Shown here piece after piece: positions 32,013 through 48,595 of a DNA stretch of 55,195 bases. This stretch comes from Saccharospirillum sp. (GTDB lineage: Bacteria; Pseudomonadota; Gammaproteobacteria; Pseudomonadales; Natronospirillaceae). The stretch is from assembly GCA_022565595.1 (NCBI GenBank), contig JAIUML010000029.1:1-55195 (forward strand). The letters are read 5' to 3'. Under the pieces are notes generated by a model. That model ran no database searches. It was not told where the DNA came from and saw only the letters and a program-made list of their open reading frames with translations. Every line of letters begins with the position of its first letter. The stretch's first letter is position 1. The translations under genes were made by a program, and so were the position numbers.

Positions 32013-34070
32013 CTACGACACCCGAAAGCGCCCGACCAGCTCGTTAAGCTCCCGACTCAAGTCCTGCAACTGCTGGCACAAGTCTGCACTCTGCCGAGCT
32101 TCCTGCACTGCTTGCTCACTTAACGCAGCCACAGTACGCGTTCGATCCTGCACTTGAACTGCGAGCAGGTTCTGATCCTCGGTAGCACTCACAATGGACT
32201 GATTCATGGCTTCTACCTGCTCGATTACCTTGACCATATCCGTTAAACAACGGCGTGCATCACGAGCACCCTTGACGGCAATACTGGCATTAGACTGACT
32301 GCCCTTCATGAACTCTGTGGTTTTCGCGGAGCCCTGCTGGACACTCTCTACCACAGTGGCGATATCCAGAATACTTTTCTGCGTGCGCGAGGCGAGCGAG
32401 CGAACTTCGTCAGCAACCACGGCAAATCCTCGCCCGTGTTCACCAGCTCTGGCAGCTTCAATGGCGGCATTCAAGGCTAACAGGTTGGTTTGCTCCGCTA
32501 TGCTATTAATCACTTCCAGTACAGCGTCAACCTGATCGATGTCACTAGCGAGCGCATCAATAAGACCCGTACCCGTTTCTATGTCTTGCGCAAGGCCTTC
32601 AAAAGAAGCAATGGTTTTATCGACCTCTTGATGGGTGACTCTGCCCGTCTTTATGGCCTGCAATGCATATTCGACAGACTGCCCAGCCATGTGCCGAACA
32701 TCGCTAACGGACTGCCCGAGGGTGATCATTGTTTGCGTCAAATGCAGGAACTCCTTGTTTTGTTGCTCACTGTACTCAGTCGCGCTGTGGGCACTGCCAA
32801 TCAAGCGCTGACTGTGCTCTCCCAGGCGGCTCCCAACCTCCAGAATTCGTACCATGATGCGCTGAATTTGCTCAACGAAGCGGTTGAAGTAGCGCGCCAA
32901 CATTCCCAACTCGTCTGTTCTTCGGGTCGCTATTCTCCGAGTCAGGTCACCCTCCCCTTCGGCTATGTCAACAACTCTTCTGGTCATCTCCTGTACTGGC
33001 TTTATTACCAGAGTGCGCAACATGACCAACAGCCCTGCAAAGCAGAGAACGACAACGCCCATCGATAACAGCAGGGTGTTCAAGATTCGCTCAGCGAAGA
33101 CTTCGGTTTCGAGACGCTCGCCGGTCATCCAGTTTTCTGTTTGGTGTTGCAACTGATTAACCCCATCTCCCAAGGCTGTGATCCCTTGCTGAACCCTCCC
33201 AATGCTCGACAAGGCTGACTCTCGAGCATTCAACTGCTCCAGTCGCGAAGCCAACAAACCAGGTTCGACCAACCTGAGGGTTACCCAGGTTTGAAAGTCC
33301 TGGTTGAGCCCATCAAAATCCTCTCGGTTCATCGGATCATCGGTCATCAATTGCAATCGGTCGAAAAGCGTTGGAATATGGCGTGCCAGATCTTCAATTG
33401 CCATTCCCTGACGGCTTAAACGATCCGTATCGGTCTCACCCAGATAACTGATCAACGACAATTCCAGTGAGAGTATTGCCTGTTGAATGGTTTGTGCCTC
33501 TATCACCAGTGGATAATCGCTGACAAAGATACTGATCATTTGAATCAGTTCGTCCAGACGACCAACCAGAACACGACCTTCTTCACGGAAAACCTCCATT
33601 TGTGCGTCCTGAGCTTCGGCAATGGTCAGTGCTGTTTCCTGATATCTGGCTATATCCAGTACCGCCTGATTCAAGCGCTGATGCTCAGCCAACAATTGCT
33701 CAACCGACGAACTGGCGTCTGGCAAAACACTCATTAACTCCCTGGCCGTTCGAACAAAGGGTGCTGAGAGTTCTTCCAATTGGCGAACTTCCTCTCTGAC
33801 CGCCGAAGGGCTGTCAACTGACAACAGATTGGCCGCTCCGTTGGATGTCATCAGGAAGCTTGCCGTCATCTGCTCCAACAGTTGCCCGCTCTTGCGAACG
33901 CTGTCAATCAACGCATCGTAATTGCGTTGGACTTGCGCCATTCCCCACTGGGTAACAGAAAAGGCCAGCCCGATGACAAGAGCAACGATACCGATCAACA
34001 GCACTACCTTGATACCCAGGCTGAATCGACTTTGAACGAGCGCTTTATCATTGACGTCTGATGTTTTCAT
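32013..34070 (-). CDS. Methyl-accepting chemotaxis protein
   Basis: This is a transmembrane chemoreceptor of 685 residues. A first membrane helix (about 20-42) is followed by a long all-helical periplasmic domain (about 45-325). The second helix (about 330-352), HAMP (about 353-405) and the signalling hairpin with [34 protein letters not shown] come next. There is no CheR-binding pentapeptide at the C-terminus. The large helical ligand domain is of the size seen in HBM-type receptors, which can bind organic acids or interact with other proteins, but I cannot assign it. The ATG at 34070 has GGAGC about 5 bp upstream. The gene begins 21 bp after the stop of a second glycerol-type binding protein, suggesting that protein as partner. 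Confidence 0.93.
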
Positions 34071-34091
34071 AAGATGCTCCCGCACTCTCGC

Positions 34092-35807
34092 TCATTGCCA
34101 TTGGCGCATCAGCGCCTCGTAAGGCAGGGTCTGCCCCGGGGGTTTCTCCTGAGACATGCGCGGCTTGGGTGCACCTGGTTGAGAAAGCCAATAGTCAGCC
34201 CCCCTGATGTCGTCACCCATGGCGATTCGAGGTGGGCAGAGGTCTGTCTGGAAGGTGCGTTGCATCACCCTCATGGCCCGATCCTGCTCACGCGCAAGCT
34301 GGTCCAGTGCTTCCTGTGGCGTTTTTAAGCCTTCAATTGCATCGGCTATGTTCGGCCACCAGAGCGTAGACAACCGCGGGTAGTCCGGGACATTGATGCC
34401 GGTCGGTGTCCAGCTATTGCGTGCCTGACTTCGGTAAAATTCAACCAGCCCGCCTAGCCTTGGGGCCAGTTCAGTCATGACTTCCGATTCGATATCGGAA
34501 GCTCGAATCGGCGTTAGGCCGGCAAGCGTTTTCTGCAAGGAGACTGTTTTAGAGGTCGTGAATTGGGCGTACAGCCAGGCCGCCTGCTGGCGTCGCTCGC
34601 TCATGAAGGCGGGTATGGTCCAGGCGCCCACATCCTGATAGCCCAACTTCATACCTTCTTGCCAGTAGGCACCGTAAGGTGAGGGTGCCATGCGCCACCT
34701 GGGAGTACCGTCCGGATGGGTAACCGGTAAACCTTCTTCCAGCATGTCGGGTGTAAAAACCGTGTACCAGAAAATCTGCTGGGCGATGTTACCCTGGGCA
34801 GGCAAAGCACCCGCCTCTTCAAAAGTCATGGCCTTCGACTCTGGCGGCGCAAAACGATCCAGCCAGTCGATAAAGGTGGTCAGTGCATAGACAGCAGCCG
34901 GGCTGTTGGTTGCACCACCTCGTGAGATGTCCGATCCAACCGGTGAGCACCCTTCCATCCGTATGCCCCAATCATCAACCGGAAGGCCGTTGGGTAAACC
35001 CGGATCCCCCGCTCCGGCCATGGATAGCCAGGCATCGGTAAAACGCCAGCCAAGAGAAGGATCACGCTTACCATAATCACTGTGGCCATAAACGCGCTGA
35101 CCATCGAGCTGCTGGACATAGACAGTAAAAAATTCGGCAATGTCTTCGTAGGCTGACCAGTTGACAGGAACACCCAGCTCATAACCATAAAGCTCTCGAA
35201 ACTGCTGTTGCAATTCCGAACGCTGGAACCAGTCGTAACGAAACCAGTAAAGGTTCGCAAATTGCTGGTCTGGTAGCTGATACAGATCTCCATCTGGAGC
35301 CCGTACAAAATCCAGACCGATGAAGTCGTCCAGATCCAGCCCGGGCGAGGTAAAATCTTCACCAATACCGGCCATGAACTCGGTTAAATTCAGTACCCTT
35401 CCGGAACGGAAGTGGTAACCAATGGAGTCCGAATCGTTCACGAAGGCATCGTACTCATTGATGCCCGAAATCAGTTGTAGCCAGAGTTGATGGATCACCT
35501 CCGACTCACGCACAACGTCGTGCTGTACTTCAATGCCGGTGATTGCGGTGAACAGAGGTGCCAGTACTTCGGACTCGTAATAGTGCGTGGCTATGTTTTC
35601 AGACATCACCTTGATACTCATACCCTTCAAGGGCTGAGCAGCCTGAGCAAACCAATTCAGTTCTTCCAACTGCTGTTGCTGCGATAAAGTAGACTGAGGA
35701 AAGTGGGTTTCAAGAAGGACTGCCAGGTCCTCTGAAGCATGAACAAAATGAAATGACATCGACAGCAGCACGGCTGCAGCCAAAGAAGCTTTGCGTTTGA
35801 TACTCAT
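34092..35807 (-). CDS. Second GlpV-like solute-binding protein, linked to the chemoreceptor
   Basis: This is a periplasmic binding protein of 571 residues with a signal peptide ending at HFVHA (about residue 24). It is a clear paralogue of GlpV (36116-37849): both have LDLDDFIGL, QQFANLYWFR, NWSAYEDIAEFF, RDPSLGWRF, QQIFWYT, WRMAPSP and QPGAPKPRM in the same order. It differs by a lone Cys in RMEGCSPVGSDISRGG and a sequence-diverged N-terminal lobe. It lies beyond a 308-bp gap with several hairpins downstream of glpV, and is followed directly by the chemoreceptor gene. Likely it feeds the receptor, or the same importer with a different ligand. The ligand is inferred from homology to GlpV. Confidence 0.85.
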   Translation of the reverse strand: MSIKRKASLAAAVLLSMSFHFVHASEDLAVLLETHFPQSTLSQQQQLEELNWFAQAAQPLKGMSIKVMSENIATHYYESEVLAPLFTAITGIEVQHDVVRESEVIHQLWLQLISGINEYDAFVNDSDSIGYHFRSGRVLNLTEFMAGIGEDFTSPGLDLDDFIGLDFVRAPDGDLYQLPDQQFANLYWFRYDWFQRSELQQQFRELYGYELGVPVNWSAYEDIAEFFTVYVQQLDGQRVYGHSDYGKRDPSLGWRFTDAWLSMAGAGDPGLPNGLPVDDWGIRMEGCSPVGSDISRGGATNSPAAVYALTTFIDWLDRFAPPESKAMTFEEAGALPAQGNIAQQIFWYTVFTPDMLEEGLPVTHPDGTPRWRMAPSPYGAYWQEGMKLGYQDVGAWTIPAFMSERRQQAAWLYAQFTTSKTVSLQKTLAGLTPIRASDIESEVMTELAPRLGGLVEFYRSQARNSWTPTGINVPDYPRLSTLWWPNIADAIEGLKTPQEALDQLAREQDRAMRVMQRTFQTDLCPPRIAMGDDIRGADYWLSQPGAPKPRMSQEKPPGQTLPYEALMRQWQ

Positions 35808-35950
35808 GGTTGTTGACCTGAACTGACTCAAGGTCCCATCTGGTACTCCCAGCACCATTTTCAGACTGGGTCATCGAGCATGCACTACTCCCCTTTCTGG
35901 CTAACAACGCCGTTGGCCAAAAAACAGGAATTGCTTTTTGTTGTAATAGT

Positions 35951-36115: not shown

Positions 36116-37849
36116 TCAACGAGTGCCAGCGGCCATCCACTCAGCCATCATCTGATCGTAAGGCATGGTACGCCCCTGCTCTTTTTCGTTTTCCATGCGA
36201 GGCTTGGGTGCACCTGGCTGAGCAAACCAGTACTCAGGATCACGTGGCTCATTCAGAATGGGCTCATACTGCTCAAAAACATTGGCACGCGCCAGGCGCA
36301 TCATGGTGTTATCGATGGCATTGGCCAGGTTGTCCAGCGCCTGTTGCGGGCTGATTTCCCCACTGACGGCCGGAGCCAGGTTCTGCCACCACAATGGCGC
36401 AAGACGTGGGTAGTCAGGTACGTTAGTACCAGTCGGTGTCCACATGCTTTCGTTGGGGCTGCGGTAGAACTCGACCAGGCCACCCAGTTTTGGCGCCAGT
36501 TCAGTCATCTCATCCGAGTTGATATCGGAACGACGGATCGGCGTCAGGCCTGCAATGGTTTTTTCAAGGGACACGCTTTTGGCTACGGTGAACTGAGCAA
36601 ACAACCAGGCTGCGGTACGGCGATCTTCCGGTGTGGAATTGAAGAACGTCCACGAACCCACGTCCTGGTAGCCTACCTTCATGCCTTCTTGCCAGTAAGG
36701 TCCAACCGGCGATGGCGCCATCCGCCATTTCGGGTTGCCTTCGTCATCTGTTACCGGCAGCGATGGGTCCGTCATGTCAGCGGTAAACGCTGTGTACCAG
36801 AAAATCTGCTGGGCGACGTTGCCTTGCGCTGGCACTGGGCCTGCTTCACCAAACGTCATACCCTGAGCTTCAGGTGGCGCATAATCGCGCAACCATTCCA
36901 CCATTTTCCGCAACGCATACTCGGAAGCCGGTGCGTTGGTACCACCACCGCGCGTCACGCTGGCGCCAACCGGGTTGCCATTCTCATTGACCCGAATACC
37001 CCAGTCATCAACCGGATTACCAAAAGGAATGCCGGGATCACCCATACCAGCCATGGAAAACCAGGAGTCATGGAAGCGCCAACCCAGAGAAGGATCACGG
37101 CGACCGTAGTCCATGTGTCCGTAAACGGTTCGGCCATCGATGGTGCGGCCGGTAAAGAACTCCGCAATGTCCTCGTAAGCCGACCAGTTCAAGGGAACAC
37201 CCAGGTCATAACCGTACTGATCACGAAACTCGTTCTGCAAATCTTCACGATCGAACCAGTCAGCGCGGAACCAGTAGAGGTTGGCGAACTGCTGTGCCGG
37301 CAACTGGTATATTTTGCCGTTGGGTCCTGTGGTGTATTGCAGACCGATGAAGTCATCCAGATCCAGGTATGGATTGGTGAAGTCAGCCCACTCGTTTTCC
37401 ATGGCATCCGAAATGGCAATGGTTTTGCCGTAACGCAGGTGGGTGCCGATGGCATCCGAGTCATTGATGTACCCGTCGTAGATATTACGATCAGATTGCA
37501 TCTGCGTTTGCATCGTATCGACCAGGTCACCCTCGCCGATGATGTTGTGTGTTATCTTGATGCCAGTGATCTCTTCGAATGCTCTAGCCAGCACGTTGGA
37601 TTCATACTCATGGGTCGTCAAACCTTCCGCTACGGTTCGAATCTCCATGCCACGGAAAGGCTCAGACGCCTTGATGAACCATTCCAGCTCAGCCAACTGC
37701 TCTTCACGACTCAAGGTAGAGCGCTGAAAATTATTGTCTACCCAACGCTCTGCTGCTTGCCGATAGGCATCCTCTGCCTGTGTCTGGGCTGCTACCAGGA
37801 GTGCACCTGAGAGCAACATTGATAGGTATTTCACTTTATTGTTTTTCAT
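36116..37849 (-). CDS. glpV: Glycerol ABC transporter substrate-binding protein
   Basis: GlpV is the periplasmic receptor of the GlpSTPQ glycerol importer first described in Rhizobium leguminosarum. The 577-residue precursor has a signal peptide ending AAQTQA (about residue 25). Family segments include NDSDAIGTHLRYGKT, DLDDFIGLQYTTGPNGKIY, NWSAYEDIAEFFTG, GHMDYGRRDPSLGWRF and QPGAPKPRM. ATG 37849 follows AGAGG at 5 bp; a start at 37924 would put 25 extra residues before the signal peptide. It is the sixth gene of the glp operon, with the small DUF2160 gene in front. The annotation as glycerol-binding rests on operon content and sequence family, not on direct binding data. Confidence 0.9.
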   Translation of the reverse strand: MKNNKVKYLSMLLSGALLVAAQTQAEDAYRQAAERWVDNNFQRSTLSREEQLAELEWFIKASEPFRGMEIRTVAEGLTTHEYESNVLARAFEEITGIKITHNIIGEGDLVDTMQTQMQSDRNIYDGYINDSDAIGTHLRYGKTIAISDAMENEWADFTNPYLDLDDFIGLQYTTGPNGKIYQLPAQQFANLYWFRADWFDREDLQNEFRDQYGYDLGVPLNWSAYEDIAEFFTGRTIDGRTVYGHMDYGRRDPSLGWRFHDSWFSMAGMGDPGIPFGNPVDDWGIRVNENGNPVGASVTRGGGTNAPASEYALRKMVEWLRDYAPPEAQGMTFGEAGPVPAQGNVAQQIFWYTAFTADMTDPSLPVTDDEGNPKWRMAPSPVGPYWQEGMKVGYQDVGSWTFFNSTPEDRRTAAWLFAQFTVAKSVSLEKTIAGLTPIRRSDINSDEMTELAPKLGGLVEFYRSPNESMWTPTGTNVPDYPRLAPLWWQNLAPAVSGEISPQQALDNLANAIDNTMMRLARANVFEQYEPILNEPRDPEYWFAQPGAPKPRMENEKEQGRTMPYDQMMAEWMAAGTR

Positions 37850-37914
37850 GATGACCTCTTTTGTTGACTTTAAACCAGTCCTTGTTACCGCTCTTTCCCT
37901 AAGTTTTTTTGGGA

Positions 37915-38187
37915 TCAACCCCACCGCATCAGGACAACAATCCAGACAACGGAAATGGCGGTTGCGACCAAAACGTGAAACTCGGTAAACCCGACAATGC
38001 CGAGATGAATGTAAGCACTGCTCAATAGCCCTATGAACAAACGGTCGCCCCTGGTAGTACTGATGGGCAGAAAGCCTTTACGCTCAATGGAAGGTGAGAA
38101 GTATTGCCACACAGTCATTCCTGCAAGAATCAAGGCAATGGTGGAAAAAAAGCCGGCTGTCGGTACGGTCCAGACCATCCAGTTCAT
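37915..38187 (-). CDS. DUF2160 family small membrane protein
   Basis: This is a 90-residue protein with three predicted membrane segments (about 10-30, 48-66 and 70-87), for example FFSTIALILAGMTVWQYFSP. It matches DUF2160, which occurs between the permeases and glpV of glycerol importers (glpU in the R. leguminosarum naming). No function is established. It is encoded 12 bp after glpQ, with GGAGG before its ATG. Confidence 0.85.
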   Translation of the reverse strand: MNWMVWTVPTAGFFSTIALILAGMTVWQYFSPSIERKGFLPISTTRGDRLFIGLLSSAYIHLGIVGFTEFHVLVATAISVVWIVVLMRWG

Positions 38188-38199
38188 AACAACGCCTCC

Positions 38200-39087
38200 T
38201 CAGGTACGGCCCAGGGCAAAGCCCTTGGCGACATGGTTGCGGACAAAGTAGATAACAAAAATCCCGGGCACGATGGTCAGTACGCCAGCGGCCGCCAGCA
38301 CGCCCCAGTCGATTCCAGAGGCACCGACAGTCCGGGTCATGATGGCCTGAATCGGTTGAGCGTTGGTGGCGGTCAGGGTGCGTGCCAGCAGCAATTCAAT
38401 CCAGGAGAACATGAACAGGAAAAAAGCGGTTACGCCTATACCTGAGCGAATCAGGGGAATGAATATCTTGACAAAGAATCGCGGGAAGCTGTAACCATCA
38501 ATATAGGCTGTCTCATCAATTTCCTTGGGCACACCTGACATAAAACCTTCCAGAATCCATACCGCCAGTGCAACATTGAACAAGCAGTGCGCAAGCGCCA
38601 CAGCTATGTGTGTATCAAACAAGCCAATGGACGAGTAAAGCTGAAAGAAGGGCAGTACAAATACCGCAGGCGGTGCCATTTTATTGGTCAACAACCAGAA
38701 GAACAGGTGTTTGTCACCAACAAACTTATAACGACTGAATGCATAGGCCGCTGGCAACGCAACACTCAAACTGATAACCATGTTAATCGCCACATAGGTA
38801 ACAGAGTTGATATAACCTCGGTACCAGGAGGGGTCCGTCAGAATTTTCCGATAATTATCGAACGTAAACTCCTGTGGAAAAAAGGTCAGTGCACCCAATA
38901 TTTCCTGGTTGGTTTTGAATGACATATTCAACAACCAATAGATGGGCAGCAGGACAAAGATCAAATAGACCACCAGCCCTATTCGTGATTTCATGGAGGA
39001 TCCTCCCATCACACGTGATTTGCCTCGTTTGATTACCGTTTTCTGCTTTTGCAGGGAACCGGCTCCGGATAATACGTTCTGGCTCAC
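38200..39087 (-). CDS. glpQ: Glycerol ABC transporter permease GlpQ (MalG type)
   Basis: This is one of two inner-membrane channel subunits. It has six membrane helices and the EAA loop for contact with the ATPases (SGVPKEIDETAYIDGYSFPRFFVKIFIPL). The frame starts at GTG 39087, with AAGGGG 5 bp upstream and 10 bp after glpP. An internal ATG at 38994 with GGGAGG upstream gives a 264-residue protein starting MKSRIGLVVYLIF, more like typical MalG permeases. The 31-residue extension VSQNVLSGAG... is basic and may or may not be translated. Its position in the operon with glpP and glpV supports the assignment. Confidence 0.88.
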   Translation of the reverse strand: MSQNVLSGAGSLQKQKTVIKRGKSRVMGGSSMKSRIGLVVYLIFVLLPIYWLLNMSFKTNQEILGALTFFPQEFTFDNYRKILTDPSWYRGYINSVTYVAINMVISLSVALPAAYAFSRYKFVGDKHLFFWLLTNKMAPPAVFVLPFFQLYSSIGLFDTHIAVALAHCLFNVALAVWILEGFMSGVPKEIDETAYIDGYSFPRFFVKIFIPLIRSGIGVTAFFLFMFSWIELLLARTLTATNAQPIQAIMTRTVGASGIDWGVLAAAGVLTIVPGIFVIYFVRNHVAKGFALGRT

Positions 39088-39097
39088 ACTGGTCCCC

Positions 39098-39976
39098 TTA
39101 TTTGTTGATCGTTTTGTCTTTCTGCATGTGCATAATTGTGGTGTAGAATATCCAACTCACCAGCAGAATGATCAGAAAGTAAATGATGGAGAAGGCAGCC
39201 GCCGGGCCCAGATCGAACTGTCCAATGGCCATGGCAGTCAACGCCTGACTGAGGAAGGTGGTAGAACTGCCCGGCCCACCACCAGTCAACACAAAGGGTT
39301 CCGCGTAAATCATGAACGAATCCATGAAGCGAATCAGCACCCCGATCACCAGCACATTGGTCAGCTTTGGTAGCTGTATGTGACGGAATACGGCCCAGCG
39401 TGACGCCTGGTCAATCCGTGCCGCCTGGTAATAGGCTTCCGGTATGGCACGCAAACCGCTGTAGCAAAGCAAGGCAATCAGAGGCGTCCAGTGCCAGACG
39501 TCCATCAGAATGATGGTTGCCCAGGCATCGCCCGAGTTACGCGAAATGTTGTAGGCGTACCCCAGTTCACGCAGCCCCCATCCCATCAGGCCGATGTCAC
39601 CGCGTGTAAACAGTTGCCAGATGGTCCCCACCACGTTCAAAGGAATGAGCAATGGCAAGGAAACCAGCACCAGGGCCAATGAAGCCTGCCAACCTTTCTT
39701 CGGCATCATCAAAGCCACGGCGATTCCCAGTGGCACCTCGATCAACAGAATGGTGAAGGAGAATGCGAACTGTCGTACCAGAGCGGATTGCAATTGGGGA
39801 TTGTTCAACATCTCCCGATACCATTCAGTACCGGTAAAGAAACGCGTATTGGCATCGAACACATCCTGAACAGAGTAGTTCACGACGGTCATCAGTGGGA
39901 TCACGGCCGAGAAAGCGACCACGATGAATACTGGTAATACAAAAAACCAGCCCTTGTTGCTTTCAATCTTGTTCAT
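39098..39976 (-). CDS. glpP: Glycerol ABC transporter permease GlpP (MalF type)
   Basis: GlpP forms the membrane channel with GlpQ. The 292-residue protein has six membrane helices and the coupling-loop motif LRAIPEAYYQAARIDQASRWAVFRHIQLP. The ATG at 39976 overlaps the end of glpT by 14 bp, with GGAG 7 bp upstream. glpQ follows after 10 bp. The N-terminus is short, as usual for sugar-type permeases lacking the extra helices of MalF. Confidence 0.92.
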   Translation of the reverse strand: MNKIESNKGWFFVLPVFIVVAFSAVIPLMTVVNYSVQDVFDANTRFFTGTEWYREMLNNPQLQSALVRQFAFSFTILLIEVPLGIAVALMMPKKGWQASLALVLVSLPLLIPLNVVGTIWQLFTRGDIGLMGWGLRELGYAYNISRNSGDAWATIILMDVWHWTPLIALLCYSGLRAIPEAYYQAARIDQASRWAVFRHIQLPKLTNVLVIGVLIRFMDSFMIYAEPFVLTGGGPGSSTTFLSQALTAMAIGQFDLGPAAAFSIIYFLIILLVSWIFYTTIMHMQKDKTINK

Positions 39977-41069
39977 CGTTCAACTCCAACAAGAATTCAT
40001 CCAGATACACCTTCAGCCACTGTTCCGGGAAGCTGACGCGTGCGTGCAAGTCAGGAACTTTTTGATCTTCGTGCAGCCGAGCCTTCATCGATACGGATCC
40101 AAACAGAAACGACATGATTCGGTAGGTACCCAGATCTTCGATGTCCTTGATGGTCACTTCGAACGCCTCGTCGTTCTTCTCGTCCCAGACGTGTACAAAT
40201 TCGGGACGAATACCCAACTTGATATTGGTTGTATTGCGTTTGCGAATTTCAGCCACAAGGTCTTCGTTGACGGGCAATAGACGGCCTTCGAATTCAAGCC
40301 CCCGCTCGGTCAATTCTGGTTCGATGAAATTCATCCCGGGGCTGCCGATAAAGTAACCAACAAAGGTGTGTGCAGGCCGTTCAAAAAGATCTCGAGGAGA
40401 GCCAAATTGGACAATCTGTCCTTCATACATCAGGGCGATCTTGTCGGCGAAGGTCGAGGCTTCCAACTGGTCATGAGTGACGTAAACCATGGTGATATTG
40501 AACTGCTCGTGAATCTGCTTGAGCTTGCGACGCAGTTTCCATTTCAATTGCGGGTCGATCACCGTCAGCGGTTCATCAAAGAGAATGGCGGATACATCAT
40601 CCCGCACAAGGCCACGGCCCATGGACACCTTTTGCTTCTGGTCTGCACTGAGGTTTTTGGCCTTACGACCCAACTGATTGGTGAGCTCGAGGATTTCGGC
40701 CACTTCAAAAACCTTGGATTTGATCTTGTGCTCGGCAGTGCCAATGTTGCGCAACGGGAAAGCGAGGTTATCGAATACGGTCATGGTGTCGTACACCACC
40801 GGGAACTGAAACACCTGGGCAATGTTGCGTTGTTCTGGCTTCATCTCATTGACGCGGACGTCATTGAAGAGAATCTCTCCATCGGAGGGCTCCAACAAAC
40901 CCGAAATAATGTTCAGCAGGGTCGACTTGCCACAACCAGAAGGCCCCAGCAAGGCATAGGCTCCGCCCTGTTCCCAGACATGCTGCATCTGCCTGATGGC
41001 ATAGTCTTCAGGCCCTTGAGGGTTGGCACTGTAGGTGTGTGCCAGAGCATTAAGCGTAATTTGCGCCAT
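39963..41069 (-). CDS. glpT: Glycerol ABC transporter ATPase GlpT
   Basis: This is one of two cytosolic ATPases of the glycerol importer, 368 residues. Walker A is LLGPSGCGKSTLLN and Walker B is AILFDEPLTVIDP. The ABC signature is degenerate: LSADQKQKVSMGR in place of LSGGQ. The last ~110 residues form a TOBE/MalK-like regulatory fold. Its partner GlpS has a normal LSGGQ signature, so the pair probably has one strong and one weak ATP site. The stop codon overlaps the glpP start. Confidence 0.92.
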   Translation of the reverse strand: MAQITLNALAHTYSANPQGPEDYAIRQMQHVWEQGGAYALLGPSGCGKSTLLNIISGLLEPSDGEILFNDVRVNEMKPEQRNIAQVFQFPVVYDTMTVFDNLAFPLRNIGTAEHKIKSKVFEVAEILELTNQLGRKAKNLSADQKQKVSMGRGLVRDDVSAILFDEPLTVIDPQLKWKLRRKLKQIHEQFNITMVYVTHDQLEASTFADKIALMYEGQIVQFGSPRDLFERPAHTFVGYFIGSPGMNFIEPELTERGLEFEGRLLPVNEDLVAEIRKRNTTNIKLGIRPEFVHVWDEKNDEAFEVTIKDIEDLGTYRIMSFLFGSVSMKARLHEDQKVPDLHARVSFPEQWLKVYLDEFLLELNDEQD

Positions 41070-41074
41070 AAGAA

Positions 41075-42163
41075 TTAAACCTCCAGCAGACTGGCCGGCG
41101 CATGAACAATGCTGCCGTGCGGGTCAAAGGCGTAGAGCTTGTGAGTCGGGAAGTAAATCTTGATGTCCTGATCCACGTGGTACTCGTGCACACCGGAGAG
41201 GTGCAACACCAGTTCGAAGTGCGGGTTGCGCACATGAAGAAAGGTCTCCGAGCCTGAAATTTCGGCCAGATCGACCTTGACCGGCAGTTCCAGGTCGTCA
41301 TCGGCATGCGGTACCAACCCAATATGGGAGGCCCGGACCCCAAACTGGTAATGGCCGGGTTTTAGTGGTCTCAGATCGCTGTTCAGTTGGAAGTGCACCG
41401 TCTCATCAAAGGTCACCTCGTTCTCGGTGACACGCCCTGGTATGATGTTGATGGGCGGCTCGGAGAACATTTCGGCGGTGATGATGTCTTTCGGGCGATG
41501 ATAGACCTGAGGCGTTGGCCCCATTTGCAACAAGCGTCCCTCATGCATAACGGCGGTATTGCCGCCCAATGCAAGCGCCTCATTCGGCTCTGTTGTTGCA
41601 TATACGGCTATGCAATTGCGGGCCTTGAACAGACTGCGCAGCTCTTCTCGCAATTCCTCGCGCAACTTGTAGTCGAGGTTGACCAGTGGCTCATCGAAAA
41701 GAATCAGTTGCGCATCCTTGACCAGGGCGCGCGCCATGGAAGTGCGCTGTTGCTGTCCGCCAGAAAGCTCCAATGGCATTCGCTCCAGTAGATGCTCAAT
41801 GCGCAGCATGGCGGCCGTTTCGTGCACACGCTGGTCGATCAACTTCTTATTGAGTTTCGCCAGGCGCAGTGGGCTGGCGATGTTCTCGTACACAGTAAGA
41901 TTCGGGTAATTGATGAACTGTTGATAGACCATGGACAGGTTTCGTTCCTGAACCGGCACCCCAGTCACATCCATGCCGTTCATCAGGACTTTGCCTGAGT
42001 TCGGCCGATCCAGGCCGGCCATCAATCGCATCAGAGTCGTTTTACCCGCCAGGGTGCGTCCCAACAGGACATTGAAGGAACCGGGCTCCAATGTCAGGCT
42101 GACATCGTCGATCCAGGTTTCGCCTTCCACAACGCGCGACACGTTCTGCAGCGTTAGAGACAT
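41075..42163 (-). CDS. glpS: Glycerol ABC transporter ATPase GlpS
   Basis: This is the first gene of the operon, a MalK-like ATPase of 362 residues. Walker A is LLGRTLAGKTTLMR, the Q-loop MVYQQFINYPNLTVYENI, the signature LSGGQQQRTSMARALV and Walker B LILFDEPLVNLD. The C-terminal TOBE-like domain is present. In place of the usual GPSGCGK the Walker A has RTLAGKT, an altered but plausibly functional P-loop seen in this subfamily. The ATG at 42163 is preceded by a 5' leader from the -24/-12 promoter at 42299-42314. Confidence 0.92.
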   Translation of the reverse strand: MSLTLQNVSRVVEGETWIDDVSLTLEPGSFNVLLGRTLAGKTTLMRLMAGLDRPNSGKVLMNGMDVTGVPVQERNLSMVYQQFINYPNLTVYENIASPLRLAKLNKKLIDQRVHETAAMLRIEHLLERMPLELSGGQQQRTSMARALVKDAQLILFDEPLVNLDYKLREELREELRSLFKARNCIAVYATTEPNEALALGGNTAVMHEGRLLQMGPTPQVYHRPKDIITAEMFSEPPINIIPGRVTENEVTFDETVHFQLNSDLRPLKPGHYQFGVRASHIGLVPHADDDLELPVKVDLAEISGSETFLHVRNPHFELVLHLSGVHEYHVDQDIKIYFPTHKLYAFDPHGSIVHAPASLLEV

Positions 42164-42298: not shown

Positions 42299-42314
42299 TA
42301 CAAGAGCCGTGCCA
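42299..42314 (-). promoter_or_regulatory. Sigma-54 (RpoN) promoter of the glp transport operon
   Basis: On the minus strand TGGCACG-GCTC-TTGTA (42299-42314) matches the sigma-54 consensus TGGCACG-N4-TTGC[A/T] with a single mismatch, GT for GC at -12. Spacing between the GG and GT doublets is correct. It faces glpS and lies about 140 bp upstream of its start. The activator gene is divergent and its likely binding sites lie 100-190 bp further upstream, the usual enhancer distance. Confidence 0.75.
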
Positions 42315-42415
42315 GAAACGAAAATTTCCGAAAAAATATGTTGGAAGTGCCCTATTAATGGGAGCCGAGAGCGGCAGGTGCACCCGAACCGGGCACTAGC
42401 GACCATCGACTTGAC

Positions 42416-42487
42416 TGTTCAAAAGTGTTCACGACTGAACACTGAGTGAACACTTCAACTGTTCAAAGTGACTGTTCAAGATGAACA
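42416..42487. promoter_or_regulatory. Cluster of TGTTCA/TGAACA enhancer sites
   Basis: Seven exact half-sites occur in 72 bp: TGTTCA at 42416, 42426, 42460 and 42473, and TGAACA at 42436, 42447 and 42482. The best dyad is AGTGTTCACGACTGAACACT (42424-42443), a perfect 8-4-8 palindrome. A second, TGTTCA-AGA-TGAACA, is at 42473-42487. Most neighbouring half-sites are spaced 10-13 bp, about one helix turn. They lie 100-190 bp from the sigma-54 promoter and about 145-215 bp before the activator ATG. They are the probable enhancer bound by the activator, and may also be used for its autoregulation. Confidence 0.75.
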
Positions 42488-42632
42488 TTGATAGCAGTAT
42501 GAGCCATCCGATCGCGGCTCTAGCGCGGATCTTCAGAAGCTGTTTTAGCATCAATGGTTGACTTGAAGTTCGATTGGTAGACAATTGAAGTCGGCTTGTC
42601 GCTCCAGGTTTGCATCCTATTGGGGCGTTTAT

Positions 42633-44624
42633 ATGAACAATAACGAACATGACAATCCGCCCGACTCAATCGCTCTTGAGTCGTTTACAGGTGACCACAT
42701 CATCGAGAACGAACCGAAGCAGCATAAAGAGGTCATTGAGGAATCCTGGTTTCGCTGCGAACAGTTCGGACTGGAACACGGCAGTGAACCGGATTTTTCC
42801 ACACTGCCCGCTGGCGAACTGAATGACTTGATCAGTGAACACCGCTATCTGCTCGATACCACCGAGAACGAAGTCCTGCCTTATTACGAAAATATCCTCA
42901 GCAATTCGGCCTGCATGATCGTCCTGGCGGACCGCCAGGGGCATGTTCTGAACACCTGGGGGCAATCCCGCTTTGGCAAGGCCGACAAGCACGGGCTGGT
43001 TGGCGGCAACCAATGGAAAGAGTCTGGCGTTGGCACCAATGCAATCGGCACCGCCCTGGCCAGCGGTCAAGCTGTGCAGGTAGGCCGCGATGAGCATTTT
43101 CTGCGCGCCAACCGCTATATGGTGGGTTCGGCCTCGCCCATCTACAACATCAACAATGATCTGGTGGGTGTACTGGATATTTCATCCGACGCCTATTTAC
43201 CGCAGGATCACACCCTGGGTATGGTCAAATTGATGTCGCTGAGTGTCGAGAACCGCCTGATCTACCTGGCGTTCCAGAAAGACCACTTCATCATCACCTT
43301 CAATACCAATGTGGTCAGCCTGGATAGCCACTGGTCCGGCATTCTGGTGCTGGATAACAACGGCACCATCGTCTCGGCCAACCGTCGCGCCGAGATCGTA
43401 TTGGCACAGGATCTCGCTCTGGTGAATGTCAATCAGATATTCGACTGCGAGATGCGGGAAATCAAGCAGCAGCCCCAGAACCTGCCAATGAGACTGCGTG
43501 CGCTGGGTCGTTATCAAATGTACATCAAGGTAATCCCGCCACTGGCGCCGGTCATGCGTGCACCGGACTTTCGGAATCGCCCGGACTATCAACCACCCGA
43601 ACCGAACCAGCCAAAATTTGATCTGTCGGAATACACAGTGGCCATGCCCGCCTCCGACCCGGAAAAACCCGAAAGCCGAGTGCCTCCCTTGCCTGACAAT
43701 GTCATCCCGATCAGCGAACTTGAGCATGGCGATGAACGTGTCAGACGAGTGGTCAAGCAGGCGCACAAGATCATGGAAAAGGACATTCCCATCCTGATTC
43801 ATGGGGAAACCGGGGCCGGCAAGGAAATACTGGTGCGCTCACTGCACTACCACAGTAGCCGGCGGAGGGAGATGCTGGTGGCCGTCAACTGTGCCGCCAT
43901 ACCGGCAGAATTGGTCGAATCAGAACTCTTTGGTTACGAAAAAGGCGCCTTTACTGGTGCCCACACCAAAGGTTCCATTGGCCTGATTCGTCGAGCACAC
44001 AAAGGCACCCTCTTTCTGGACGAAATCGGTGAGATGCCGCTGACCGTACAATCACGGCTGTTGCGAGTTTTGCAGGAACGCATCGTTACCCCTCTGGGGT
44101 CGACGGAAGCCTTTCCTGTGGACATCAAACTGATTTCGGCCACCAACCGGATTTTGAAAGAAGAAGTTCAGGCGGGTCACTTCAGAGAAGACCTCTACTA
44201 CCGCATATCGGGCCTGAATATCGAATTGCCGCCACTGCGTGACCGAGCGGATAAACAGTCCGTTATTCAATACGTGCACCATCGGCTGTGCCTGGAAGAT
44301 CCGTCGCCGCCCTTGTCACCCGCCATGCTGGCTCAATTTGTTGCCCACCCCTGGCCGGGCAACATGCGCCAACTGGTGCATGTATTGAAGGTTGCCATGG
44401 CCATGGCGGACGGCGACCCTCTGGAAGACTGGCACTTGCCGGACGACTTCTTTGACGACTTGAGCAGTACTCCCGCTACCACAGCCTCAGATCAGGCAGA
44501 GACCTATGACACTCTGATTCCAAGACTGCTGAAAGAATACAATGGCAATGTGTCGCAGACGGCCAAAGCGGCTGGCGTCAGCCGCAATACAGTTTACAAG
44601 TACGCTCGTCAGTCCGAAAGCTGA
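42633..44624 (+). CDS. AcoR/DhaR-type sigma-54-dependent activator
   Basis: This is a bacterial enhancer-binding protein of 663 residues. A GAF-like domain (about 60-210, with SGVGTNAIGTALASGQAVQVGRDEHF) is followed by a PAS-like domain (about 230-300), a Pro-rich linker and the AAA+ domain (about 365-590). Walker A is GETGAGKE (391-398), the sigma-54 contact loop GAFTGA (438-443) and Walker B GTLFLDE (458-464). A Fis-type helix-turn-helix ends the protein (NVSQTAKAAGVSRNTVYKYARQ). All ATPase and sigma-contact residues are intact. ATG 42633 has GGGG 7 bp upstream; the TTG at 42585 is rejected. DhaR, a related protein, activates glycerol genes in Klebsiella, which supports its role here in driving glpS transcription. 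Confidence 0.92.
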   Translation: MNNNEHDNPPDSIALESFTGDHIIENEPKQHKEVIEESWFRCEQFGLEHGSEPDFSTLPAGELNDLISEHRYLLDTTENEVLPYYENILSNSACMIVLADRQGHVLNTWGQSRFGKADKHGLVGGNQWKESGVGTNAIGTALASGQAVQVGRDEHFLRANRYMVGSASPIYNINNDLVGVLDISSDAYLPQDHTLGMVKLMSLSVENRLIYLAFQKDHFIITFNTNVVSLDSHWSGILVLDNNGTIVSANRRAEIVLAQDLALVNVNQIFDCEMREIKQQPQNLPMRLRALGRYQMYIKVIPPLAPVMRAPDFRNRPDYQPPEPNQPKFDLSEYTVAMPASDPEKPESRVPPLPDNVIPISELEHGDERVRRVVKQAHKIMEKDIPILIHGETGAGKEILVRSLHYHSSRRREMLVAVNCAAIPAELVESELFGYEKGAFTGAHTKGSIGLIRRAHKGTLFLDEIGEMPLTVQSRLLRVLQERIVTPLGSTEAFPVDIKLISATNRILKEEVQAGHFREDLYYRISGLNIELPPLRDRADKQSVIQYVHHRLCLEDPSPPLSPAMLAQFVAHPWPGNMRQLVHVLKVAMAMADGDPLEDWHLPDDFFDDLSSTPATTASDQAETYDTLIPRLLKEYNGNVSQTAKAAGVSRNTVYKYARQSES

Positions 44625-44643: not shown

Positions 44644-46134
44644 TCATTTTGCCATGGACAGGGTGGCACGAACCGCCTGATGCCAACCATCCAGCAGCCG
44701 CTGACGCACTGAGGCTTTCATGGCTGGCTCGAACTGACGTTCGCACTGCCACGTCTCGCGCAATTGATCAATGGACTCGTACACACCACACTGAAGGCCA
44801 GCCAGCATGGCAGCGCCCAGGGCTGTTGTCTCGGTGACGACGGGCCTGGCAACCTGACTGTTGGTAATATCGGCCATAAACTGCATGGCCCAGTCATTGG
44901 CGGCCATGCCACCGTCTATACGCAACTCGACATCCGTCGCAGAGCCATCTCGAAGCATGGCCCCGAGCAAATCGGCGGTCTGGTAACCAACCGATTGCAA
45001 GCCTGCGGTGACGACCTCGGCGACGCCAGTATCACGCGTCATTCCCAACAAAGCCCCGCGAGCATCAGGGTTCCAGTGTGGCGCCCCAAGGCCAGTAAAG
45101 GCCGGCACCAGATAGACTGACTGCTCAGCGCCAACCTGTTCAGCCAGGGCCGAACTCTCGGCTGCGGAATTGATCATTTGAACCTGATCGCGCAGCCACT
45201 GCATGGTCGCGCCCGCCATGAAGATGGAGCCTTCCAGTGCATAGGTCACTTCACCCTTGAGTCGGTAGCCCACCGTCGTAAGCAGTCGGTGTTTCGAGTT
45301 CACCGGCATCACACCCGTGTTCATTACCATAAAGCACCCCGTGCCGTAGGTACTCTTGGCCATACCTACATCAAAACAGCACTGCCCAAACAGAGCCGCT
45401 TGTTGATCTCCAGCCACCCCGTTGATTGGCAGCTCTGCGCCAACCACCTCGGCTGAGGTCGTACCAAAATCGGCGGCTGAGTCGAGCACGGTCGGCATCA
45501 TCTTGATAGGGACATTGAACAGGTCCAGCAATGCCGAATCCCATTGTTGGGTGTGAATGTTGAACAGCAGAGTGCGAGAGGCATTGGAGGCATCGGTAAC
45601 GTGGCGCTTGCCCCCAGTAAGCTTCCAGATCAAATAGGTATCGACTGTTCCGAACAGCAATTGACCCGCTTCGGCCTTTGCTCTTGCGCCACTGACATTA
45701 TCCAGTATCCAGGCAACCTTGGACGCTGAGAAATAGGGGTCCAACAGCAAACCGGTTTTCTCGTGTACCCAGGTTTCCGCCTTGCGCTTGCGCCATTCGT
45801 CACACTGGCGCGCCGTCCGACGGTCCTGCCAGACAATGGCGTTGTAGATTGGCTCACCGGTTTTTCGGTCCCAGACCAGGGTTGTTTCGCGCTGATTGGT
45901 GATACCCAGGGCTCGAATTGATTCGCGCCGCGACCCCGATTGCTCAAGTACCTGTTGCAGCGTCGTCAAGGTGGTTTGCCAGATGTCCTGTGGGTCGTGC
46001 TCAACCCAGCCCGACCTGGGGAAATGTTGCTCAAACTCCAGTTGAGCCGAGTCGAGCACCTCGCCACTCTGACTGAATAATATGGAGCGCGTGCTGGTGG
46101 TGCCTTGATCGATAGCGATGAGACAATTCGACAT
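44644..46134 (-). CDS. glpK: Glycerol kinase
   Basis: GlpK phosphorylates glycerol to glycerol-3-phosphate in the cytosol, trapping imported glycerol. The 496-residue protein has the N-terminal [29 protein letters not shown], the substrate motif [25 protein letters not shown] and the C-terminal [15 protein letters not shown] block. Length is standard. ATG 46134 has AGAGG 6 bp upstream. It converges on the activator gene, 19 bp from its stop codon. It has its own promoter region with DeoR-like repeats, so it appears not to share the sigma-54 promoter. Confidence 0.97.
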
Positions 46135-46251: not shown

Positions 46252-46280
46252 CTATAAATTCGTTTTATTTCGTTTATCAA
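46252..46280 (-). promoter_or_regulatory. Putative glpK promoter with operator-like repeats
   Basis: On the minus strand TTGATA (46275-46280) and TTATAG (46252-46257) are separated by exactly 17 bp. On the plus strand TTCGTTT occurs at 46259-46265 and 46269-46275, 10 bp apart, so both lie on or within the spacer. An inverted third copy, AAACGAA, is at 46295-46301. Phased TTCG-type repeats of this kind are typical of DeoR-family repressors such as GlpR. No glpR gene is in the window. Confidence 0.55.
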
Positions 46281-46421: not shown

Positions 46422-47261
46422 ATGAGCAACCTCAAACATACGCTGTTCTGGATGACCGTTTACCTCCTGGTAGTCGGTTCGGTGTGTGCGTTGATCTTCG
46501 ACCCACTGGAAAGCGCCTTTATGGCCAACTGGGTCTTCAATTCAATGATTCTTGGCGTCCTTGTCATCGGCGTCGGCGTGACCTTTCGCCAGGTACTGAC
46601 CTTGAGGGCCGAGGTGCAATGGATCGCTCTGTTTCGCACCGGCCGAGCAGGACTGTCGGTTGAGCAGGAACCTCGCCTGCTGAAACCTCTGGCTCGCCAA
46701 TTGGGCGAAGACTTCAAGAGAGATCGCTTTACCCTGTCGGCCATGTCACTGAGGACGGTGCTGGACGGCATCCGCTCTCGCCTGGATGAAGCCCGAGAAA
46801 TCTCCCGTTACATGATCAGCCTGCTGATCTTCCTTGGCCTGCTGGGTACCTTCTGGGGGCTTCTGGGCACCATCGAATCCGTTGGCCGGGTGATCATCAA
46901 TTTGAACGTCGGCAATCAGGACTTCAATCAGGTCTTCGGTGAGCTCCAGGCAGGGCTATTAACGCCTCTGGAAGGCATGGGAACGGCATTCAGTTCCTCC
47001 CTCTTTGGTTTGGGTGGATCACTGGTTCTCGGCTTCCTCGATCTTCAGGCTGGCCATGCACAGAACCGTTTTTATGACAGCCTGGAAGAGTGGTTGACCG
47101 GTTTGACCAACCTTGTCGACGCTCGCGAGATCAACGAAGGGCAAGCCCCTAAAGCCGGCAGCATCAAGGCGAGAGAGGAGCTGGCTGAGGAGCTGATGAT
47201 ACTCGAAGAAGAGAACCGGCAGCTCAAGCGGCAGTTGGGTTTCTATGACGACGAGAAATAA
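46422..47261 (+). CDS. MotA/TolQ/ExbB-like proton-channel protein
   Basis: This is a membrane protein of 279 residues with four predicted helices (about 8-28, 37-57, 126-150 and 195-216). The last two have the MotA/TolQ pattern LLIFLGLLGTFWGLLGTIESVG and PLEGMGTAFSSSLFGLGGSLVLGF. A C-terminal charged coiled tail (EELMILEEENRQLKRQL) is unusual for TolQ. It is paired with the OmpA-domain protein 14 bp downstream. Such pairs resemble non-flagellar stator complexes. The AGGAG site precedes ATG 46422. Function in this organism is unknown. Confidence 0.85.
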   Translation: MSNLKHTLFWMTVYLLVVGSVCALIFDPLESAFMANWVFNSMILGVLVIGVGVTFRQVLTLRAEVQWIALFRTGRAGLSVEQEPRLLKPLARQLGEDFKRDRFTLSAMSLRTVLDGIRSRLDEAREISRYMISLLIFLGLLGTFWGLLGTIESVGRVIINLNVGNQDFNQVFGELQAGLLTPLEGMGTAFSSSLFGLGGSLVLGFLDLQAGHAQNRFYDSLEEWLTGLTNLVDAREINEGQAPKAGSIKAREELAEELMILEEENRQLKRQLGFYDDEK

Positions 47262-47275
47262 ACGGAGGCATTCAG

Positions 47276-48595
47276 ATGTTAGGTAGCCGCCGTCGCTCCT
47301 CCAGTAACATCAATGCTTGGCCAGGCTATGTAGACGCTCTTTCTGCACTGCTGCTGCTGGTCATTTTCATGCTGCTGATTTTCACCCTGGCGCAGGTGTT
47401 TCTGGCTGAAACCGTCTCCGATCGCGATCAGGAATTGAACCGCCTGAATGCCCGTCTGGCAGAAATCTCCGATGCGCTGCGAATCCAGCGTGCCACCAAC
47501 GAAGATTTAAGCCAACGGTTAACCACCTTGCGCTCGCAATACAACCAGAGCTTGCAGGTTCAACAAGGGCTCGAAGAGCAGATTGCCGCACTCGAAGAAA
47601 CCATTACCACCGATCGCGAAACCATCGAAGTGCAATTGCGCGAAAAAGCCTCACTGCAACAGGACATCGTTGCACTCAGACAGTTGCGTGCAGACCTTGA
47701 GCAGGAATTGGCGGTCGTAGTCGCCACGCTTAGCCTGCGTGAAGCCGATATCGACCGTTTGCAGTCCGAACTGAGCAGCCGGGAAGCACTCGTTGGCTCG
47801 TTGCGCGACCGCACCCAGGCACTGGAAGCTCGCCTGGCGGATGAACGAGAGCGCACCCTGCTTGCACAGCGCCAGATCGAACAAAGAGAATTCCGCATTG
47901 AAGACCTGGTGGCCATAGTGGAAGAAGGTGAGCGTGCCCTGGAAGAGGAACGTGAACTCTCAGCCAGCGCACGCGCCGATGTGCGACGTTTGAGCCAACA
48001 GATCGAAGACCTGCAAACTCAGCTTGGCATCATCAGTGCGGCGCTCAGGCTCGAGGAAGATCGGACCGCTCAACAGGAAACACTGTTGGAAGACCTGGGC
48101 CAACGACTCAACACCTTGCTGGCCCAGAGAGTGACGGAGCTGGAGCAATACCGCTCGGAGTTTTTCGGTCGGCTACGTCAGGTATTGATCGACAACCCGA
48201 ACATACGCATAGAGGGAGACCGCTTCCTGCTGCCATCTGAGCTCTTCTTTGACTCCGGTTCTGCCACACTGAATGCGGCAGGGCAGTCAGAGCTCGACAA
48301 GCTGGCAGAAACGCTGCTCAGCATCGCCGTGAATATCCCTGATGATCTGGAATGGATCCTGAGGATAGATGGCCATACCGACATTCGCCCTATCAGTACC
48401 GAGCGATTCCCCTCGAACTGGGAGTTATCCACCGCCAGAGCAGTGTCGGTCGTCCGCTATTTGGCGGGTCAGGGAATTACTCCGGACCGCATGGCCGCAG
48501 CAGGTTTTGGTGAGTATCACCCAATAGACGAAAGAGAAACCGAAGAAGCCTTCGCTCTCAACCGCCGAATCGAAATCAAACTGACCAACCGTTGA
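47276..48595 (+). CDS. MotB-like coiled-coil protein with OmpA domain
   Basis: This is an inner-membrane protein of 439 residues. One membrane helix (about 20-42) has a conserved Asp20 at its start (GYVDALSALLLLVIF), the position of the proton-binding Asp of MotB. A very long coiled coil (about 45-290, heptad-rich Glu/Arg/Leu) leads to a C-terminal OmpA peptidoglycan-binding domain (about 300-437) with RIDGHTDIRP, ELSTARAVSVVRYL and NRRIEIKL. It pairs with the MotA-like gene 14 bp upstream. The long coiled coil would span the periplasm to the cell wall. The ATG at 47276 has GGAGG 7 bp upstream. Confidence 0.88.
   Translation: MLGSRRRSSSNINAWPGYVDALSALLLLVIFMLLIFTLAQVFLAETVSDRDQELNRLNARLAEISDALRIQRATNEDLSQRLTTLRSQYNQSLQVQQGLEEQIAALEETITTDRETIEVQLREKASLQQDIVALRQLRADLEQELAVVVATLSLREADIDRLQSELSSREALVGSLRDRTQALEARLADERERTLLAQRQIEQREFRIEDLVAIVEEGERALEEERELSASARADVRRLSQQIEDLQTQLGIISAALRLEEDRTAQQETLLEDLGQRLNTLLAQRVTELEQYRSEFFGRLRQVLIDNPNIRIEGDRFLLPSELFFDSGSATLNAAGQSELDKLAETLLSIAVNIPDDLEWILRIDGHTDIRPISTERFPSNWELSTARAVSVVRYLAGQGITPDRMAAAGFGEYHPIDERETEEAFALNRRIEIKLTNR

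Follow-up and report, generated by a model that had tools for sequence, protein, structure and literature searches.

Predicted sigma-54 enhancer control of a glycerol ABC importer in Saccharospirillum and related bacteria, with a putative GlpR layer

What controls a glycerol importer when the gene beside it encodes a sigma-54 enhancer-binding protein? The question is raised by a 55,195-nucleotide stretch of Saccharospirillum sp. (contig JAIUML010000029.1 of assembly GCA_022565595.1; contig C29 of a 4.77 Mb genome), here called the window. The ATP-binding cassette (ABC) importer genes glpS-T-P-Q-U-V, and then a second glpV-like gene, run leftward from 42163. The gene for an AcoR/DhaR-type sigma-54 activator (42633–44624, plus strand; assigned by its Pfam domains) runs rightward from 42633, and glpK lies beyond it in convergent orientation. 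Glycerol genes flank the activator on both sides, as an earlier note on this DNA, made from the sequence alone, had said. That note proposed that the importer is under enhancer-type control, a logic different from repression by the DeoR-family protein GlpR in the described rhizobial system. Comparative genomics strongly supports the first part of this proposal: very probably, glpSTPQUV is activated with sigma-54 by the divergently encoded protein acting via an enhancer array. In this genus GlpR repression is, on somewhat weaker grounds, likely to be added at glpS.

Promoter, half-site array and activator

The intergenic region between glpS and the activator gene holds, in order from glpS, a −24/−12 site, a TTCG-N6-TTCG repeat and seven TGTTCA/TGAACA half-sites. 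The −24/−12 site, TGGCACGGCTCTTGTA (42299–42314, minus strand), faces glpS with one mismatch to TGGCAC-N5-TTGCW, as the earlier note had it, and arithmetic from the site predicts a glpS start at ~42288. Within the window alone such a match means little: 55 matches with up to two mismatches were found against 42 expected, and 3 of 100 shuffles reached 55. A comparative set of loci was therefore built. It consists of 50 intergenic regions, namely 13 from the family, 33 from the order, one from Marinobacter HL-58 (L018) and three more (L239–L241), and spans family codes f1, f6, f19, f20, f26, f37, f55 and f74 plus HL-58. Two loci were excluded: L017, whose intergenic sequence duplicates that of G006 (by eye), and L179, whose contig ends before glpS. 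L017 is a record of Natronospirillum, which NCBI assigns to Oceanospirillales in the Gammaproteobacteria.

In 47/50 loci glpS is faced by a −24/−12 site that has its GG intact and no more than two mismatches; mononucleotide shuffles gave a mean of 1.0 and a maximum of 5. Toward the activator gene no such site is conserved (3/50 loci), and there is therefore no sign of sigma-54 autocontrol. The activator gene has a weak sigma-70-like promoter candidate, TTGACT-16-GACAAT (42558–42585, plus strand), which matches at 9/12 positions (1 found versus 0.4 expected). Sites resembling those of integration host factor (IHF; at most one mismatch) are present in 33/50 loci, many of them at −41 or −54 from the −24 element (11.4 expected, maximum 17). 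As an internal control we had considered a psp-like site at 12587–12602; it was rejected, being inside a coding region that reads from its letters as kinase-type.

Seven half-sites fall within 72 bp (42416–42487), at 42416, 42426, 42436, 42447, 42460, 42473 and 42482. This putative enhancer array lies ~107–173 bp upstream of the −24 element, close to the 100–190 bp given before, and at −128 to −199 relative to the predicted start. The window as a whole contains 64 TGTTCA/TGAACA (34 expected), and the clustering is its only striking feature when it is taken alone. No hexamer is more enriched across the 50 intergenic regions than TGTTCA, which occurs 266 times versus 25.4 expected (maximum 35 across 30 dinucleotide-preserving shuffles) and is present in 50/50 loci. 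TGTTCG alone among its one-base neighbours is above expectation (38 versus 11.8). Between 40 and 210 bp before the −24 element, 48/50 loci have at least three half-sites and 50/50 have at least two. Their order and orientation differ among loci; 128/185 spacings between neighbouring half-sites nevertheless deviate from whole helical turns by at most 1.5 bp, versus 35% under the uniform distribution taken as reference. Elsewhere in the genome a perfect TGTTCA-N4-TGAACA occurs just once, at C16:64078; it was rejected as a second sigma-54 target since it sits inside a long open reading frame.

Because promoter and half-sites are conserved across loci, chance is untenable as the source of promoter and array. 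The earlier observation (promoter, half-sites, regulator motifs and neighbours) was thus confirmed, and its strength comes from conservation.

The regulator keeps the sigma-54 motifs that had been read in it: Pfam matches were to Sigma54_activat (218 bits), GAF and an AAA lid. For comparison we aligned 29 sequences (the window's own protein and those of 28 loci) from the 50 activator loci. Frames were examined in 32 loci; L017, L101, L102 and L173 were excluded because the start rule gave short frames, and L105 (stop in frame) was among the others left out. GAFTGA is intact in the activator; GAFTG is invariant in the alignment, and 28/29 sequences also have the last A of the motif (S in L240). 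The SRNT-YK of the C-terminal helix-turn-helix (HTH) is likewise invariant, and the structure model has helices at this end. We call this HTH Fis-type; in the Pfam scan no HTH model matched.

AlphaFold, run with the 29 aligned orthologues, gave N-terminal helices, GAF at ~94–205, an alpha-beta domain at ~219–301, AAA+ and HTH, with mean pLDDT 73, pTM 0.46 and poor quality at residues 416–464. We read the alpha-beta domain of this model as PAS-like. The sensor region matched the DhaR(N) structure 4lrx in a profile search (E 2.6e-16); in the fold search the match had rank 32 and E 8.5e-14, but the overall superposition was poor (rmsd 16). The score against the DhaR model NF008485 was 234 bits, compared with a cut-off of 551. 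The activator has no receiver domain. An rpoN gene is present in the same genome (Sigma54_DBD, 240 bits, C2:18386).

Activator and importer occur together. The activator was found in 13/22 family genomes (E ≤1e-90), and GlpS in exactly the same 13/22 (E ≤1e-110). In the order, 45/390 genomes from 14/142 genera have the activator (E ≤1e-100). Outside the family, order loci were chosen by the activator, and 33/34 have it divergent beside glpS-T-P-Q; at the 34th the contig ends. In a phylum-wide sample the activator stands beside GlpS in 13/21 same-order genomes that have GlpS. The sigma-54 wiring therefore appears not to be peculiar to the window's strain and, as far as these genomes indicate, is common to many related bacteria.

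Loci without the activator

GlpS was detected in 79/398 genomes of the phylum-wide sample, 67/79 of them new, and 40 of these were fetched (the upstream stretch of L268 is short, 213 bases). Three of the 40 fetched loci have the activator, and all three carry both DNA elements. Of the remaining 37, 25 have a gene for a GlpR-like DeoR protein within the fetched sequence, and the other 12 have neither regulator. Promoter and array were found together in 0/37 activator-less loci (0/25 and 0/12, respectively). An isolated promoter-like match occurred in 2/25 GlpR-like loci. One or two isolated half-sites occurred in 3/37 activator-less loci; two of these are GlpR-like loci, with one half-site in L249 and two, 238 bp apart, in L264.

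A quick GlpS tree of 87 rows, for which the program flagged long branches between distant rows, accounts for the activator label with 4 changes; shuffled labels required 28 on average. Seven loci without the activator, five of f36 and two of f19 (L237 and L238), sit inside the activator-bearing part of the tree, and because they nest there the activator was probably lost in both groups.

L237 and L238 offer a natural comparison. Their GlpS is 92–93% identical to that of HL-58, which has the activator, and the three form one starred clade. The sequences align without gaps around the promoter site: HL-58 has TTTTGGCACAGCTCTTGTA, and L237/L238 have TTTTAGCATAGCTCTTGTA and TTTTGATGCAGCTCTTGTA. The GG of the −24 element and all half-sites are missing from L237 and L238 (no TGTTCA in 450 bp), and TTCG-N6-TTCG, which lies just before the promoter in HL-58, L237 and L238, is retained. 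Activator gene, enhancer and −24 element are accordingly present together in HL-58 and absent together in L237 and L238.

At the five f36 glpS loci (L231–L235) the fetched stretch contains neither the activator nor a GlpR-like gene; in L231 and L234, choline/betaine-type genes, as read from open reading frame (ORF) starts, seem to precede glpS.

The GlpR layer and rival readings

The contrast with GlpR control drawn in the earlier note is not supported for this genome. The gene adjoining glpS is that of the activator, but a GlpR-like DeoR protein is encoded unlinked on contig C12 (NF008154, 322 bits, just under the cut-off of 331). Its orthologues occur in 16/22 family genomes, including all 13 with the activator; in two of these 13 the frame holds an internal stop. 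Moreover, a feature absent from the note, TTCG-N6-TTCG at 42319–42332 (minus strand), abuts the −24 element directly upstream and is a putative GlpR operator by its position and conservation. Within the window's genus, 5/5 genomes with the activator have the repeat beside the −24 element; HL-58 has it too, which makes 6/50 loci, compared with a mean of 0.05 and a maximum of 2 in mononucleotide shuffles. Since the genome has a GlpR-like gene and the repeat abuts −24 in five genus genomes, activator plus repressor is the more likely logic here.

The same type of repeat precedes other glycerol genes. One, also a putative GlpR operator, lies before glpK (46259–46272, plus strand), and CGAA-N6-CGAA precedes glpD in the window's own genome and in four others of the genus. 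Of 15 glpD loci, 12 had their upstream regions read by eye: the N6 form appears in those five genomes, an N7 form in another five, and neither form in G016 and G008. Genomes with the N7 form and the activator (G009, G010 and G012) have no repeat at glpS. A GlpR-motif search with an N5 spacer instead of N4 gave 15 matches versus 22 in the control and hence no excess. In L018, L183, L185 and L201 the cluster order is glpS, activator, glpK, glpR, glpD, and in L173 it is glpS, activator, glpR, glpD; activator and GlpR therefore coexist. A further DeoR protein, GlpR-like at 228 bits (cut-off 331), is encoded at G000:C1:342500–353000 (L115), inside an apparent ABC-transporter operon with a glycerophosphodiesterase-like gene, as read from ORF starts. 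It is possibly a second glycerol-phosphate regulator.

According to the mechanism that we propose, the activator would sense glycerol or a glycerol product or metabolite and bind the TGTTCA array ~130–200 bp upstream of the predicted glpS start. It would then remodel RNA polymerase–sigma-54 at the −24/−12 site and switch on glpSTPQUV, and perhaps also the second glpV and a downstream chemoreceptor gene. In this genus GlpR, on TTCG-N6-TTCG within ~20 bp upstream of the −24 element, would lower glpS expression, this hindrance lasting until glycerol-3-phosphate appears. The comparative evidence is strong for the sigma-54 part and moderate for the GlpR part.

A more specific version, to which we give somewhat less than an even chance, is a dual-key switch: the activator would read glycerol directly and GlpR its phosphorylated product. 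On this view the ancestor of the sampled gammaproteobacterial clade would already have had the sigma-54 layer, which would have been lost at least twice, together with its DNA sites, in the f36 loci and in L237/L238. If this is true, uptake could begin before glycerol-3-phosphate exists, and this would avoid the long GlpR-limited lag on glycerol described for Pseudomonas putida (PMC6922529).

Several points weigh against the sigma-54 reading. The activator is limited to 45/390 order genomes. Three f19 loci (L173, L183 and L185) hold only promoter candidates with three mismatches, at a similar distance, and the −12 element of the window is TTGTA, not TTGCA/T. The window's own locus has no good IHF-like site; the best has two mismatches. 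Mononucleotide shuffling was used for the promoter, the IHF-like sites and the TTCG repeat, the half-site spacings were compared with a uniform distribution instead of shuffles, and because the loci share ancestry the counts are not independent. Finally, HL-58 could have regained the activator instead of L237 and L238 losing it.

Control by sigma-54 and the activator alone, with GlpR having no role at glpS and an incidental TTCG repeat, is the rival that survives best, and we consider it unlikely. It would account for the 44/50 loci that have no repeat near the −24 element, the GlpR-type repeat being confined among the 50 to this genus and HL-58, and also for the window total of three such repeats versus 1.7 expected, a count no higher than chance and not significant by itself. 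These same numbers speak against the added GlpR layer. The argument for a GlpR operator would instead draw on position and conservation: the repeat recurs at the same place in 5/5 activator-bearing genus genomes, and the motif precedes the genome's own glpD and glpK as well as glpS in L237 and L238, which have GlpR but no activator.

Less probable still is an activator dedicated to another polyol or alcohol, with an importer whose main substrate is something other than glycerol. Other members of the AcoR/DhaR type are known to sense other small molecules, and in f20 and f26 loci glpK is not within the fetched 12 kb. Loss of the GlpR-controlled importer does not stop Cupriavidus metallidurans from using glycerol (PMC7912956). 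However, glpK adjoins the locus in the window, glpK-glpR-glpD lie beside it in L018, L183, L185 and L201, and mutant screens in Ruegeria pomeroyi led to the annotation of its homologous glpVSTPQ as a glycerol transporter (PMC10130141). It is by such homologues that we take the window's importer to be a glycerol transporter.

That the TGTTCA/TGAACA array consists of GlpR operators, glpS being a repressor-controlled sigma-70 gene with an accidental −24/−12 match, is hardly credible: TGTTCA-N4-TGAACA does have the geometry of the Escherichia coli GlpR operator (half-site TGTTCG), TGTTCG is enriched about threefold and all 13 activator-bearing family genomes have a GlpR orthologue, but the sixth half-site base is A in 266 cases and G in 38, the arrays track the activator and not GlpR (no cluster in the 25 GlpR-like loci), GlpR and the TTCG repeats persist in L237 and L238 without any TGTTCA, and what precedes glpD and glpK in the window's genome is TTCG/CGAA repeats, not TGTTCA arrays.

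Gene neighbourhood and known systems

The complete importer set S, T, P, Q, U (DUF2160) and V is present in that order; the names glpS to glpV follow the earlier note and PMC7912956. All genes are on the minus strand. The two ABC ATPases are glpS (41075–42163; domain matches, 13/22 family genomes) and glpT (39963–41069), the permeases are glpP (39098–39976) and glpQ (38200–39087), glpU (37915–38187) encodes the small DUF2160 membrane protein, and glpV (36116–37924) encodes the solute-binding protein; glpT, glpP, glpQ and glpV were assigned by ORF and domain matches. As read from the sequence, the true start of glpV is probably the ATG at 37849. The second glpV-like gene (34092–35858, minus strand) encodes a solute-binding protein with 58% identity to glpV. 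On the other side, the glycerol kinase gene glpK (44644–46134, minus strand) scored 688 bits against TIGR01311 (cut-off 590).

Directly after the second glpV-like gene, within 32013–35858, lies a gene for a methyl-accepting chemotaxis protein (MCP; HAMP and MCPsignal domains). The glpV-glpV2-MCP order recurs in G017 (L119), where the stretch stops within the MCP. In the window, the MCP and the second glpV may together form a binding-protein-dependent glycerol chemoreceptor that is co-transcribed with the importer. Beyond glpK, paired MotA/ExbB-like and OmpA-domain proteins are encoded at 46422–48595.

The analysis predicts that, in a set of gammaproteobacteria, sigma-54 and a dedicated sensor govern an ABC importer for glycerol, either replacing GlpR or acting on top of it. 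It provides a concrete activator, a candidate binding motif (the TGTTCA arrays) and a promoter. HL-58, L237 and L238 add a set of close loci that differ in activator, enhancer and −24 element all at once. A sigma-54 promoter that responds to glycerol might moreover find use as an expression tool.

The name AcoR-type is used here by architecture and the DhaR(N) match, with no AcoR sequence compared. AauR is a two-component response regulator. With RpoN it controls the ABC importer aatJQMP for glutamate uptake in Pseudomonas aeruginosa (PMC7962211), and the window's activator would resemble it in switching on an ABC importer with sigma-54; a GAF sensor and the lack of a receiver domain set it apart from AauR. 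AcoR-like sigma-54 activators are named as a group in PMC3162934. Like them, the protein combines a sensor region, AAA+ with GAFTGA and a Fis-type HTH without a receiver domain; unlike them, it is encoded beside a glycerol ABC importer, with TGTTCA half-sites in variable, helically phased arrays. The sensor region is like that of E. coli DhaR in matching DhaR(N) 4lrx, but DhaR is described as missing GAFTGA and having a sigma-70 partner (PMC3162934), whereas the window's activator has GAFTGA.

In the usual account, glycerol enters by GlpF facilitation or by an ABC importer, both repressed by GlpR (PMC6922529, PMC7912956). A term search of a review of Pseudomonas glycerol use (PMC6922529) found neither rpoN nor 'ABC transport'. 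Within the titles, abstract openings and selected passages of the open-licence literature, no description of a sigma-54 activator combined with a glycerol ABC importer was found; ABC importers under sigma-54 and the glp importer under GlpR are each known, and their combination appears undescribed in that material. In Ralstonia sp. RRA a glp set including glpR and glpSTPQV rises on glycerol (PMC11223650). The closest known relatives are the glpSTPQUV importers of Rhizobium leguminosarum VF39 and Cupriavidus metallidurans, for which control by an adjacent GlpR (DeoR) repressor is described (PMC7912956). The window shares with them the genes S, T, P, Q, U and V and a glycerol kinase nearby; it differs in its divergent sigma-54 activator and array and in a GlpR-like gene that is unlinked.

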